From an uncultured Clostridia bacterium (GTDB lineage Bacteria; Bacillota; Clostridia; Christensenellales; Borkfalkiaceae), in the NCBI GenBank assembly GCA_947623655.1, contig CANQHG010000017.1:1-40093 (forward strand): DNA of 40,093 bases. Direction: 5' to 3'. Shown here in pieces: positions 15,731 to 19,807 of this stretch (positions within the stretch are counted from its first letter, which is position 1; each line of letters starts with the position of its first letter). The translations under genes were made by a program, and so were the position numbers. Under the pieces are notes generated by a model. That model was not told the origin of the DNA, did not search any database, and was given only the letters and a program-made list of their open reading frames with translations.

Positions 15731-17395
15731 TCAGCCCAAAATCAAAATGGACAGGCCGCAGAAAAGGATGAGAGAGAGCGCGTCGACAATAGTCGTGATA
15801 AAGGGCGAGGCGACGGCGGCAGGGTCGAGTTTCACCGCCTTGACGGCGAGAGGCAACAGGCAGCCGACAAGCTTTGCAATGATGATCGTCGCGAACATGG
15901 CGAGAGATACGACCGCGCTCAAAAGCACCGTGTAGCTCTCGTACCCGAAGAGCAATCTGTCGATGAGTTGCAGTTTGCAGAAGCATGCCATGGAGAGCGT
16001 CGCCGAGAGGAGAAGAGAAACGCGCAATTCCTTCCACAAAACTTTCCATGAGTCTTTGAGGGTGAGATCGCCCAGCGCGAGAGAGCGGATGACGGTGACG
16101 GAAGCCTGCGAGCCCGTGTTTCCGCCCGTATCCATCAGCATGGGCACGCACGCGAAGAGCACGGGACTGATCGCGTTCAGTCTTCCCTCGAACGTGTTGA
16201 TGATGAGCCCCGTAAAGGTCGCGCTAACCATGAGAATGAGCAACCACGGCACGCGGTTTTTATAGATAGAAAACACGCTCGTCTTCAGATACGGCTTCTG
16301 GGCGGGGAGAATAGCGGCCATCTTTTCGATATCCTCGGTATTCTCTTCCTCGATGACGTCCATTGCGTCGTCGACGGTGACGATACCGACGAGCCGCCGT
16401 TCATCGTCCACGACGGGGATCGCGAGGAAGCCGTAATCGGAGATCTTCCGTGCCACGGCTTCTTTATCGTCCCGTGTGTTGACGTAGATGACGTTATCCT
16501 CCATGACATCGGAGATGAGAGCGTTTTTTTTCGCGAGCATGAGCTCTTTGGCCGTGACGAGCCCGATGAGCCGATTTGACATATCCGTCACGTAACAAGT
16601 GTAGATAGTCTCTTTGTCGATCGCCGTCTCGCGGATACGGTCGAACGCCTTTTCCACCGTCATATCGGGCAAAAAGCGCACATATTCGATGGTCATGATC
16701 GAACCCGCGCTGTCTTTCGGATACTTGAGGAGTTCGTTGATGTACGTTCTCGTCTCGCTGTCGCTCTGGGCAAGAAGACGCTTGACGACGTTAGCGGGCA
16801 TCTCCTCGATGAGGTCGACGGTATCGTCGAGGAAAAGCTCGTCCATGACCGCCTTGACTTCTTTGTCGGAGAGTTTCTTTAAAAGTTTTTCCTGCGTATC
16901 GCTGTCGATCTCGACAAACATGTCTGCAGCGAGGTCCTTGGGAAGAATGCGGAAGAGGACGGGCAGGTCTTCTTCCTTGACGTTCTCAAAGATCTCCGCA
17001 AGGTCGATCTCGTTCATCGAGGAGAGAATGGGCTTTAAAACGGAAAATTTTCTCTCCCCGAGAAGCGCGATGATCTCCTCTTCTTCGGCGATCCTGCGGG
17101 CGGCTCCCTCGGGCAAGTCCTCGATGATATCTACGGTGTCGTCGACCGAGACGTCTTCCATGACTTCTTGCAGTTCGTCGTCGCGCAACCCCTCAACGAT
17201 CTTCTGTTGCACAGATGAGTCGAGAAGGACGAGGATCTCGGCGAGAAAGTCGCTTTCGAGCGCCCGCGCGAGAGGGATCAGATCCTCGGTTTCCGATAAA
17301 ATTTGAGCCGCCTCTTCGGGGGAGAGTTTCCCCACGATCTCGGCGGCGGCTTCATAGTCTTTGTTTGTGAGCAGTTCTTTTAACATATCTGTCAT
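15731..17395 (-). CDS. mgtE: Magnesium transporter MgtE with a duplicated N-terminal domain
   Basis: 554 aa against about 450 for the family. Mg2+ channel gated by internal Mg2+. Two copies of the helical MgtE_N domain are visible: about residues 24-104, ending DDTVDIIEDLP, and about 127-207, ending DDTVDLIEEMP. Next come paired CBS domains (about 235-355: SAGSIMTIEYV, ISDVMEDNVIYV, GIVTVDDAMDVI) and a five-helix pore with PMLMDTGGNTGSQASVTVIR and DPAAVASPFITTIVD. Start 17395 has GGAGGTGG just upstream. A long structured leader precedes it. The extra N domain is the main oddity. Confidence 0.93.
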   Translation of the reverse strand: MTDMLKELLTNKDYEAAAEIVGKLSPEEAAQILSETEDLIPLARALESDFLAEILVLLDSSVQQKIVEGLRDDELQEVMEDVSVDDTVDIIEDLPEGAARRIAEEEEIIALLGERKFSVLKPILSSMNEIDLAEIFENVKEEDLPVLFRILPKDLAADMFVEIDSDTQEKLLKKLSDKEVKAVMDELFLDDTVDLIEEMPANVVKRLLAQSDSETRTYINELLKYPKDSAGSIMTIEYVRFLPDMTVEKAFDRIRETAIDKETIYTCYVTDMSNRLIGLVTAKELMLAKKNALISDVMEDNVIYVNTRDDKEAVARKISDYGFLAIPVVDDERRLVGIVTVDDAMDVIEEENTEDIEKMAAILPAQKPYLKTSVFSIYKNRVPWLLILMVSATFTGLIINTFEGRLNAISPVLFACVPMLMDTGGNTGSQASVTVIRSLALGDLTLKDSWKVLWKELRVSLLLSATLSMACFCKLQLIDRLLFGYESYTVLLSAVVSLAMFATIIIAKLVGCLLPLAVKAVKLDPAAVASPFITTIVDALSLILFCGLSILILG

Positions 17396-17429
17396 GGCTC
17401 CACCTCCGTTCTGAAATTATGGAATGAGA

Positions 17430-17538
17430 GCGCAGACAACAATAGGGCCCCTGCTATTTTTGGCATGCCGAAAGGAACAAAGGCTTTCCTATGTTGTCTA
17501 CGCAGCTACTTCGTCCTTTCATAGCAATATTTCTCCTT
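17430..17538 (-). promoter_or_regulatory. Structured mgtE leader RNA, riboswitch-like, novel type
   Basis: On the minus strand, a 16-bp stem with one bulge pairs 17488-17503 with 17430-17446 (GCGTAGACAACATAGG with CCTATTGTTGTCTGCGC). A competing set pairs TGCTAT (17521-17526) with ATAGCA (17452-17457) and GAAAGG (17515-17520) with CCTTTC (17470-17475). The two sets cross, so they form either a pseudoknot or alternative states. It does not match the M-box consensus as I remember it, nor yybP-ykoY. No U-run follows, so control would be at translation or through the upstream ORF. Confidence 0.5.
17454..17522 (-). CDS. Possible 22-codon leader peptide upstream of mgtE
   Basis: ATG 17522 is preceded by AAGGAG at 10 nt. 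The peptide begins MKGRSSC and ends with SACQK, then TAG. Its coding region spans the 5' arms of both alternative stems, so its translation would change the leader fold. It could equally be chance: the SD spacing is slightly long and there is no way to test coding here. Confidence 0.35.
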   Translation of the reverse strand: MKGRSSCVDNIGKPLFLSACQK

Positions 17539-17562
17539 ATCATTAATTAATTATTTATTTAT

Positions 17563-17825
17563 TTCGAACATTTCTTTGCTTGGCCTGCGGACGCGTAGGG
17601 AGTTCGCCCGCGCGTCATTCTGAGCGAAGCGAAGAATCTCACGGGCCTACGAAAAGAAACGTTCAATCGAACCTTCCCCGTTCATCAATCAGGTTGGCCG
17701 CGGAAGCGTTATATGCAAGGACAATAAGGCGCAGATATGCGCCGAATTGAGTCGTCCACGGCGGAAGTAAATTCCGCCTAAGGCACATGATTTCGGAATG
17801 GTTTCGAACGTTTCTTTGCTCGGCC
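17563..17825. repeat. R3 structured element, copy B, with an R2 unit inside
   Basis: Inverted relative to copy A. It starts TTCGAACATTTCTTTGCTTG, holds an R2 unit (17591-17652, GTCATTCTGAGCGAAGCG) and then the core, and ends TTTCGAACGTTTCTTTGCTC. It sits directly upstream of the mgtE leader, where its promoter would be expected. No clear sigma-A promoter is visible for mgtE. Confidence 0.8.
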
Positions 17826-18079
17826 CTCGCTTGCCCCATTTAAAGGGGGGAGCGGCACCGTTCTTGCTCAACAGCCCTGTGGGCTGTGAGCGTGCCGCGA
17901 CATGAGGCGTGGCCTCGCCGAAGAAGTTGCGGCGGTCCCTGCCGCCGCACCGGGTGGCGCGGCGTAGCCGCGTCAGGTGGGGGTTGAAGCCGAGGGCAAC
18001 TCACGGGGTGCCGTTCGAAATCACCCTACCGCGATTTTTCTTTTTCCACTCTTTATTATACGCGAATGCGGAAAAAAAG
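17826..18079. other. Repeat-rich, non-coding gap downstream of ade
   Basis: GC-rich palindromic sequence, for example CAGCCCTGTGGGCTG and GCGGCGTAGCCGCG, with R1-like pieces (GGGGGGAGCGGCACCG), then an AT-rich tail. No supported ORF, RNA gene or promoter. Confidence 0.5.
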
Positions 18080-19807
18080 TCAATGATTTTGCATTTCTTC
18101 GAGCGGAACAAAAGCGCCCTTTCCGAGGTCAAAAAGTCCCTTATCGGTGAGCTTGAGAGCGGGAATGACGGGAAGTGCCAAAAATGCGAGAGACATAAAG
18201 GGATCGAACCCTTCTTTCACCCCCATTCCGTAGGCGCGACGGCGCATCGCGGAAGTTCTCCCTACGACTTCTTCGTACGGCGCCGAACTCATCAGCCCCG
18301 CAATATCGAGCGGGAAGACTTCCTCCCCCCCGTCAAAGACGAGCGCCATACCGCCGCCCGCCTCTTTCAGCAGTGACACGACCCGCGCCATCGCCCCGTC
18401 GTCATCGCCCATGACGATGAGATTGTGGCTGTCGTGCGCGACGGTGACGCCGATCGCTCCCCCGCGAAGGCCAAAGCCCTTGACGACGCCGAGCCCGATC
18501 CGCCCCGTTGCAAAATGGCGTTCGACGACGGCAAGCTTTAAAAATTCCGTCCCCTTGACCCACAGTTCCCCCGCCGCGGCGTCGAAAAACGTTTCGGCGG
18601 TGTAGAGAGACTGAGGAGTCATCTCAATGGCACGGAGCTTTCCCCCTCGCGTGACGATCTTAAAATCTTCGGGCGAAACGTCCTTCACATGGACGGTATT
18701 TTTTACGGCGTCGGGTAAGTAGCGCTGTGCGGCGGAAAAGATGGTTCTCCCGTTTTCCGCAACGAGCATGCCCCGCTTCCAGACGGCAGCAACTTCGAAG
18801 TTCTCAAGGTCATTTACGAGTACCATGTCTGCAAAGTAATGCGGAGCGATCGCGCCGACATCTTGGACATGGTAGCACTCTGCGACGTTGAGCGTAGACA
18901 TGGGTACCGCAAATTTCGCGGGAAGCCCCGCATGCACCAGACGGGCGAGAGCGCCGTTGATGTGCCCCTTTTCGAGATCCTCGGCATGCTTGTCGTCCGA
19001 ACAGACGAGGAAGCGGCGGAAGTTCATACAGGTCACGGCTTTCACCCCCTCTTCCACGCTGTTCGTCGAGGAGCCGACGCGGATCTGCACATACATGCCC
19101 TTTTCCGTCTTTTCACGGAACTCTTCCGCCGTGAGGCACTCATGGTCCGTTCTGACGCCCGCGCTAAGATAGGCGTCGAGCGCGTTGCCCGTGAGGGCGG
19201 GAGCGTGGCCGTCGACGATCTTGCCGTATTTTTCTGCGGCCTGCAATTTTCTCAGAACATCTTCGTCGGCCTGCAAAACGCCGGGAAAATTCATCATCTC
19301 GCCGAGCCCGTGAAAGAGCTCCCGACTAAGTTCCGCCTCCGTCTCCCTGCCGTTGATGGCCGCGCCGCTCGTCTCAAACGGGGTAGCGGGCACACAGGAA
19401 GGAAGCTGCATTTTTATGCCGAGCGGCTGTACGCCGTCTACGGAGAGACGGCCGAGGGCTTCCCAAAGATATTCCGCGCCCGCGACGCCGCAGACGTTGA
19501 CGATCTCATGCGGATCGGCGATCACGGTGCCCGTGCCGTTGCGCACGGCGAGCACAGCAAACGCCTCGGGCGACAGAAGACTGCTCTCGATGTGGATATG
19601 GGCGTCGAGAAAACTCGGCAGAAGATATTTTCCGCCGCCGTCGTATTCCCGCTTTCCCGCGAGGTTGCCGAAGCCGACGATGCGGCCGTCCGCAATGCCC
19701 ACGGCGCCAAGCGCCGTCTCTCCCGTAAAGACGTTGAAGATATTGACGTTTTTGATCACAAGGTCGCATTTTTCGCGGCCCATCGCGCAATCGATACAAT
19801 GTTTCAT
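18080..19807 (-). CDS. ade: Adenine deaminase
   Basis: 575 aa, full length. Converts adenine to hypoxanthine plus ammonia for purine salvage. Amidohydrolase fold with the metal motif DAHIHIESS, VIADPHEIVNV, DGHAPALTG and DHECLTAEE. A typical C-terminal AdeC domain includes GGAIGVTVAHDSHNLIVMG. Adenine released by MtnN could be a substrate, though the genes are far apart. The -10 box lies 6 nt from ATG 19807, so the mRNA should be leaderless. Confidence 0.93.
   Translation of the reverse strand: MKHCIDCAMGREKCDLVIKNVNIFNVFTGETALGAVGIADGRIVGFGNLAGKREYDGGGKYLLPSFLDAHIHIESSLLSPEAFAVLAVRNGTGTVIADPHEIVNVCGVAGAEYLWEALGRLSVDGVQPLGIKMQLPSCVPATPFETSGAAINGRETEAELSRELFHGLGEMMNFPGVLQADEDVLRKLQAAEKYGKIVDGHAPALTGNALDAYLSAGVRTDHECLTAEEFREKTEKGMYVQIRVGSSTNSVEEGVKAVTCMNFRRFLVCSDDKHAEDLEKGHINGALARLVHAGLPAKFAVPMSTLNVAECYHVQDVGAIAPHYFADMVLVNDLENFEVAAVWKRGMLVAENGRTIFSAAQRYLPDAVKNTVHVKDVSPEDFKIVTRGGKLRAIEMTPQSLYTAETFFDAAAGELWVKGTEFLKLAVVERHFATGRIGLGVVKGFGLRGGAIGVTVAHDSHNLIVMGDDDGAMARVVSLLKEAGGGMALVFDGGEEVFPLDIAGLMSSAPYEEVVGRTSAMRRRAYGMGVKEGFDPFMSLAFLALPVIPALKLTDKGLFDLGKGAFVPLEEMQNH

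Follow-up and report, generated by a model that had tools for sequence, protein, structure and literature searches.

A conserved upstream open reading frame interlaced with alternative RNA folds in the mgtE leader of a genus of uncultured Clostridia

The mgtE locus and the layout of its leader

The window, the whole 40,093-nucleotide stretch of DNA that was analyzed, carries on its minus strand a gene for the Mg2+ channel MgtE, and the leader of this gene contains a 22-codon upstream open reading frame (uORF) with its own Shine-Dalgarno (SD) sequence, as a preliminary description of the locus had claimed (Table 1). Within the leader, GCGTAGACAACATAGG (17488-17503, minus strand) pairs with 17430-17446 over 16 bp with a single bulge on the 3' side (17442), which is the long-range stem reported in the same description. 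The hairpin spanning 17430-17503 had a predicted energy of -36.3 kcal/mol (z -6.2), and none of 200 shuffled sequences was as good; the fold of the whole leader (z -3.2) was equalled by 1 of 200 shuffles. The second set of pairings, described as crossing the stem, was also present in the window in both halves, TGCTAT (17521-17526) with ATAGCA (17452-17457) and GAAAGG (17515-17520) with CCTTTC (17470-17475). A third, competing pairing, between the 3' arm of the stem and the mgtE SD, was absent from that description.

Table 1. Positions of the mgtE gene and of the leader features in the window
Feature	Position	Strand	Evidence
mgtE, Mg2+ channel, 554 aa	15731..17395	minus	TIGR00400 E 6.5e-140, over cut-off; Pfam MgtE_N, CBS, MgtE
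mgtE Shine-Dalgarno region CGGAGGTGGAGCC	17396..17408	minus	sequence; coevolution with post-stop segment in relatives
uORF, 22 codons, MKGRSSCVDNIGKPLFLSACQK then stop	17454..17522	minus	SD-led uORF in all leaders kept
uORF Shine-Dalgarno AAGGAG	17533..17538	minus	sequence
Codons 4-5 (CGA-AGT) of uORF	17508..17513	minus	near-invariant across leaders; rare in genus mgtE genes
P1 5' arm (uORF codons 7-12)	17488..17503	minus	fold and covariation
P1 3' arm, bulge at 17442	17430..17446	minus	fold and covariation
P2 5' arm	17476..17484	minus	fold; swap test z -8.7 (44 main-class leaders)
P2 3' arm, at uORF stop	17447..17455	minus	fold; swap test
P0 5' strand (uORF start region)	17515..17526	minus	swap test z -6.2; -6.3 and -5.2 on 32 and 17 representatives
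P0 3' strand (uORF end; in relatives also P3 5' arm)	17465..17475	minus	swap test, covariation
Anti-SD segment, overlapping hairpin 3' arm	17432..17450	minus	duplex energy with mgtE SD
Candidate mgtE promoter TTGACT-N17-TATAAT	18055..18083	minus	sequence; similar site before uORF in 29/55 leaders

Among the 55 related leaders that were compared (see below), a promoter-like site ended 23-73 nt (median 30) upstream of the uORF in 29, so that little RNA would lie 5' of the uORF; the remaining 26 did not match the strict promoter pattern. In the window itself, a 475-nt repeat region (17561-18035), which had 66 matches in its own genome including itself, mostly partial, separates the candidate mgtE promoter from the uORF. 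With this repeat region in between, the window leader may be transcribed from a different promoter or may extend far in the 5' direction.

Conservation of the leader and coding character of the uORF

In the genus sample, an MgtE match was found in 38 of 61 genomes, and the loci of the best 30 of these 38 were examined. The uORF was present in all 29 uncut loci of this mgtE-first sample, the window among them; the thirtieth (L029) was cut by a contig end and was left out of the count. Four further near-full MgtE matches included two with the uORF start pattern (G084 and G185) and two, in G179 and G180 (L088 and L089), in which mgtE had no leader and a promoter-like TTGACA/TATAAT lay directly 5' of the mgtE SD, possibly through natural loss. 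The start pattern RTGAARGGNCGAAGTA had one match each in 53 of the 398 genomes of the family, all from the window genus, and the reversed pattern had no match in the same 398 genomes. A total of 55 leaders that differed in the 100-nt core, with 54 distinct uORFs, were kept: 29 found via mgtE and 26 via the start pattern, for which latter 26 invariance of the motif was built in. An SD-led uORF of 20-27 codons was found in all 55, and in every one of them the frame that opens 39-65 nt past the uORF stop starts like MgtE. The motif was present in 39 of the 80 named loci, a set that overlaps the 55 leaders. The leader was absent from 6 of the 45 close relatives having upstream DNA (L095-L145 minus L112, L137, and L139-L142); the relatives are uncultured Clostridia, mostly isolates called 'Lapin', which we took to mean rabbit gut. 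A search of 151 genomes by DNA similarity to the window leader gave one weak match per genus in three other genera (E 4.9e-4 to 9.1e-4).

The coding character of the uORF was assessed in the 55 leaders. The stop codons of the uORF interchange (TAG in 28, TAA in 21, and TGA in 6); frame 1 was never open for more than 7 codons, and frame 2 closed after a median of 4 codons, yet was open for at least 20 codons in 12 leaders. Gap intervals were multiples of three in 8 of the 11 distinct cases within the uORF versus 11 of 29 after it (43-leader alignment). Codons 2 and 3 varied at the third base (AAA/AAG and GGA/G/C/T), apart from one GAA; residue 2 was accordingly Lys in 54 leaders and Glu in 1, and the peptide start M-K-G-R-S was nearly invariant. 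Codon 4 was CGA in 28 and codon 5 AGT in 29 of the 29 mgtE-first leaders; the corresponding counts for all leaders, 54 and 55 of 55, partly reflect the search pattern. Both codons are rare in mgtE itself: across 27 genes from the genus, CGA made up 2.4% of the Arg codons and AGT 1.8% of the Ser codons. The first acidic residue lay at positions 7-10 in 42 leaders and was later or absent in 12.

Past codon 6, pN/pS was 0.98 (26 pairs), so that there is no visible constraint on this part of the peptide, although pS may be depressed by overlapping RNA structure. The open frame and the first codons of the uORF thus matter, the rest of the peptide being without visible constraint. A small protein with a function of its own, such as a partner of MgtE, could be the product of the uORF, with the RNA folds secondary; this reading would suit the retention of the SD and open frame in 55/55 leaders and the near-invariant M-K-G-R-S. 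It is nevertheless very improbable in view of the pN/pS value, the fixed position before mgtE, and the different C-terminal halves of the two subclasses of leaders. That the presence of the uORF proves its peptide functional was rejected.

Coevolving pairings and a predicted switch

The leaders were divided by peptide motif into a main class of 44 and an HPC subclass of 11. RNAalifold, run on a sequence-only alignment of 43 main-class leaders (L015 was omitted as close to L046), found P1 and a further stem, P3. Pairs changed on both sides numbered 6 of 7 in the P1 core and 3 of 5 in P3, 89.3% of the cells of the P1 core were paired, and P1 and P3 pair counts exceeded those of shuffles and slides. 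The covariation score was 0.276 versus 0.178 in shuffles and was reached by 0 of 500, the structure being favored in this comparison since it was derived from the same alignment. One outlying pair (columns 42 and 139) was poor, with 54.8% paired.

Because P2 aligned poorly, an alignment-free swap test was chosen, which compares the duplex energy of a segment pair from a single leader with that of segments exchanged among leaders. Among the 44 main-class leaders, four pairings coevolved: P1 (z -7.9) and P2 (z -8.7), which join the uORF middle to the post-stop segment; P0 (z -6.2), which joins the uORF start to the uORF end; and the pairing of the anti-SD segment with the mgtE SD (z -5.0). Four unpredicted control pairings gave z scores of 0.0 to +2.0. 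When the 55 leaders were thinned to 32 or to 17 that are less closely related, the four predicted pairings ranged from z -4.1 to -7.1 and six control pairings from z -1.2 to +2.6. Covariation among related mgtE leaders, named beforehand in the preliminary description as a check, was in this way found for P1, P2, P0, and anti-SD:SD. Of the crossing pairings proposed in that description, the 17515-17520 half is part of the coevolving P0; the 17521-17526 half is not the conserved version, and many relatives pair GCC(R) at the uORF start with GGC near the uORF end, unlike the TGCTAT/ATAGCA of the window.

In the HPC subclass (n = 11), the swap test was weak (P1 z 0.0, P2 -0.9, anti-SD -1.7, and P0 -2.7), and one unpredicted pairing reached z -2.0. 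This subclass comprises L013, L014, L018, L022, L027, L028, L071, L082, L084, L085, and L087, and its peptides have an [HY]HPC or similar motif. By eye, its 5' arm differs, reading GACGGGCC with GGCTCCGTC, and the uORF start appears to have a pairing of its own, AGGACGA with TCGTCCT.

The duplex of the anti-SD segment with the mgtE SD had an energy of -14.2 kcal/mol versus -33.2 kcal/mol for the hairpin arms. In every one of the 55 leaders, the best anti-SD stretch overlapped the 3' arm of the hairpin, but with so short a post-stop segment (11-37 nt for main-class leaders) such an overlap is nearly forced. P1/P2 and anti-SD:SD share one segment and are mutually exclusive where they overlap. 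P0 crosses P1/P2, and the uORF end is common to P0 and P3. One reading of these pairings is a metal- or ligand-binding riboswitch, in which P0 and P1/P2 form one pseudoknot with the joining strand GGNCGAAGTA as its core for binding. One state would hide the start of the uORF, and the uORF itself would only pass the signal on. The crossing of P0 with P1/P2, both of which coevolve, would suit such a riboswitch, as would a peptide without visible constraint past codon 6 and a CGA-AGT that is near-invariant at third codon positions though rare in mgtE genes, as expected of an RNA core. We nonetheless regard it as unlikely: the core is short, its variable positions are mostly the third positions of codons 2 and 3, as for coding, and P3, which shares the uORF end with P0 and shows double changes, points to alternation rather than to one stable pseudoknot.

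The reading towards which we lean is that mgtE is attenuated at the level of translation, under the control of ribosomes on the 22-codon uORF. The preliminary description had proposed a regulatory RNA that contains a small ORF. The analysis bore out that the mgtE leader is conserved and structured, that it has alternative folds, and that its uORF looks translated; the whole is better read as a uORF-gated attenuator, because the stem, the uORF, and the mgtE SD form one switch and because, in 29 of 55 leaders, a promoter-like site close to the uORF leaves little RNA 5' of it. The post-stop segment, Y, would pair with the uORF middle (the P1/P2 hairpin), leaving the mgtE SD free and mgtE ON, or alternatively with the mgtE SD, turning mgtE OFF. 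A ribosome traversing codons 7-20 would cover the uORF middle, prevent P1/P2, and release Y, so that mgtE would be OFF; a ribosome that paused at the rare CGA-AGT (codons 4-5), dropped off, or never started would leave most of the hairpin in place and mgtE ON. P0 may tune initiation at the uORF. What precedes mgtE is a real, conserved, uORF-embedded switch, with conservation of the uORF and coevolution of the four pairings established at the level of sequence comparison; by analogy with MgtL and MgtQ, we infer its direction, a pause of the ribosome at CGA-AGT, and that low Mg2+ turns mgtE ON.

Modelled access of the mgtE SD across the genus was 0.29 in the free leader; placing a ribosome at codon 5, at codon 12, or at the stop gave 0.26, 0.19, and 0.30, respectively. 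In 43 of the 55 leaders, access was lower with the ribosome at codon 12 than without one, a modest effect. For the window's own leader, modelling predicted no switch, the SD being mostly paired in every state (unpaired 0.16 free and 0.21 at codon 12).

Transcription attenuation, in which the hairpin or an uncovered segment would act as an intrinsic or Rho-dependent terminator governed by uORF translation, was also weighed. A run of five T residues followed the hairpin 3' arm in 7 of 11 HPC and 5 of 44 main-class leaders; such a run would suit a terminator and an OFF hairpin, counting against the attenuator of translation preferred here, and termination may play a part, above all in the HPC subclass. 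In addition, a terminator-like hairpin lies before mgtE in 12 of the 46 class-level M-D uORF loci described below, and MgtL acts via Rho, according to the available part of PMC11282234. The window hairpin has no T-run after it, nor do those of 39 of the 44 main-class leaders, and the coevolution of SD and anti-SD is not required by termination alone; we judge this explanation improbable.

Relation to known Mg2+ leaders and to other Clostridia

No Rfam 15 family, M-box (RF00380) and yybP-ykoY included, had a gathering-score match in the window, and the five matches at E <= 10 in 17200-17900 were at chance level, none being M-box or yybP-ykoY; the preliminary description had found the leader unlike either. 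The M-box is likewise a leader of Mg2+-related genes, and that of Mycobacterium tuberculosis resembles the present leader in anti-SD/anti-anti-SD control with uORFs (PMC12810186, available part), but the genome of the window had no M-box match under the strict filters used. The M-box as a rule for the genus was rejected: it was found in 32 of 151 family genomes but in 1 of 19 genus genomes (G111), which had no MgtE match. The Thioalkalivibrio mgtE motif, compared here by its description, is also a candidate structured mgtE leader that takes in the SD; in the available part of PMC11109978 it is reported only from Thioalkalivibrio, as a riboswitch candidate.

The available part of PMC8092293 describes mgtQ of Salmonella as a translation-aborting ORF before mgtB, with destabilized ribosomes on MgtQ freeing the mgtB ribosome-binding site. 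As there, a short SD-led ORF precedes a Mg2+ transporter gene in 55 of 55 leaders, and alternative stem-loops would mask or free the transporter ribosome-binding site depending on uORF translation, such pairings being found in the main class and weak in the HPC subclass (n = 11). In contrast to mgtQ, which has 8 codons and requires Asp2 and Glu5 (same source), the uORF has 20-27 codons, an M-K-G-R-S start, and CGA-AGT; in addition, the gene is mgtE and the phylum is another. In E. coli mgtA, translation of the MgtL leader ORF keeps the transporter off and early ribosome drop-off at low Mg2+ turns it on, as given in the available part of PMC11282234. The logic whereby uORF translation keeps the transporter off would, by analogy, be shared by the window leader; MgtL, however, depends on a Rho-dependent terminator and on EPDP, an acidic/proline motif (same source). 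In the present leaders, the pairings point to SD masking, and the uORFs do not open with acidic (and proline) residues: Glu2, in 1 of 55, is the sole acidic residue within the first six. In the literature searched, with most subscription journals outside it, no description of mgtE uORFs in Clostridia was found; the available part of PMC6429828 names uORFs and a corA motif without mention of mgtE.

Control of mgtE matters, MgtE matches being found in 185 of the 243 class-level genomes searched, and uORF-based control is indicated in a genus with an M-box in just 1 of 19 genomes searched. SD-led uORFs also precede mgtE in many other Clostridia, where they start with M-D, as in MDAGSSSG...GR, MDDGARCQ...VPRSRR, and MDSGPLP; this start, absent from the 55 leaders of the window genus, is a likeness to MgtQ. 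With related loci counted apart, as in all class-level counts, an ATG/SD M-D uORF was present in 22 of 80 order- and class-list loci, compared with at most 2 (mean 0.4) in 50 shuffles. When the rules for SD and start codon were relaxed, the count was 42 of 80, a figure without shuffle control, and 46 of a second set of 86 loci lacking the genus motif; some of these 46 are probably chance ORFs, and L163 looks like the end of another gene. In this second set, Asp2 occurred in 41 of the 69 strict small ORFs that precede mgtE, compared with 5 of 144 in other parts of these loci (Fisher p 7e-20). Of the 148 Arg codons in the 46 uORFs, 31.8% were CGA, and of the 141 Ser codons, 32.6% were AGT; the shares in the mgtE genes were 4.6% and 7.9%.

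A single profile uniting the genus uORF with the class-level uORFs was not established in 166 upstream regions and their reversals. A DNA profile found L137 (E 8.6e-4) and then L286, L139, and L291 (E 0.017-0.027), the rest having E >1 and being mixed with reversed controls, and a peptide profile gave a best E of 0.052. Place and codons suggest that the M-D uORFs share descent with M-K-G-R-S; by profile searches, common descent was not established beyond L137/L139 and, perhaps, L286/L291. In L286 and L291, the uORF, of another family, reads MDLCGRSTKMDS..., with GGACGAAGTA-like DNA common to the window genus (E 0.017 and 0.027).

A broader proposal, tentative and on balance doubtful, is that a class-wide family of mgtE-leader uORFs in Clostridia senses Mg2+ via decoding, the gate in the window genus being a slow CGA-AGT pair just before the switch arm rather than an acidic/proline nascent chain, a peptide, or an aptamer. 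If this were true, the speed of CGA-AGT decoding would set expression of the Mg2+ channel. Sensing of Mg2+ by the ribosome during translation is known for Enterobacteria; these leaders offer a system for asking whether it is more widespread among bacteria and whether the sensor can be a codon pair.

Rfam searches gave no match in twenty class-level loci and four matches, all M-box, in twenty others. In L252, L256, L294, and L296, a full M-box (131-155 bits) was found before mgtE together with an MgtL-like uORF (MDSGPLP, MDTGPVP, or a frame with VDPGPLP), a combination suggesting double control of mgtE. In L154, L170, L171, and L174, M-D uORFs with an MDDG start and a GVPR core were followed by terminator-like hairpins with T-runs before mgtE, and these leaders are possible transcriptional attenuators.
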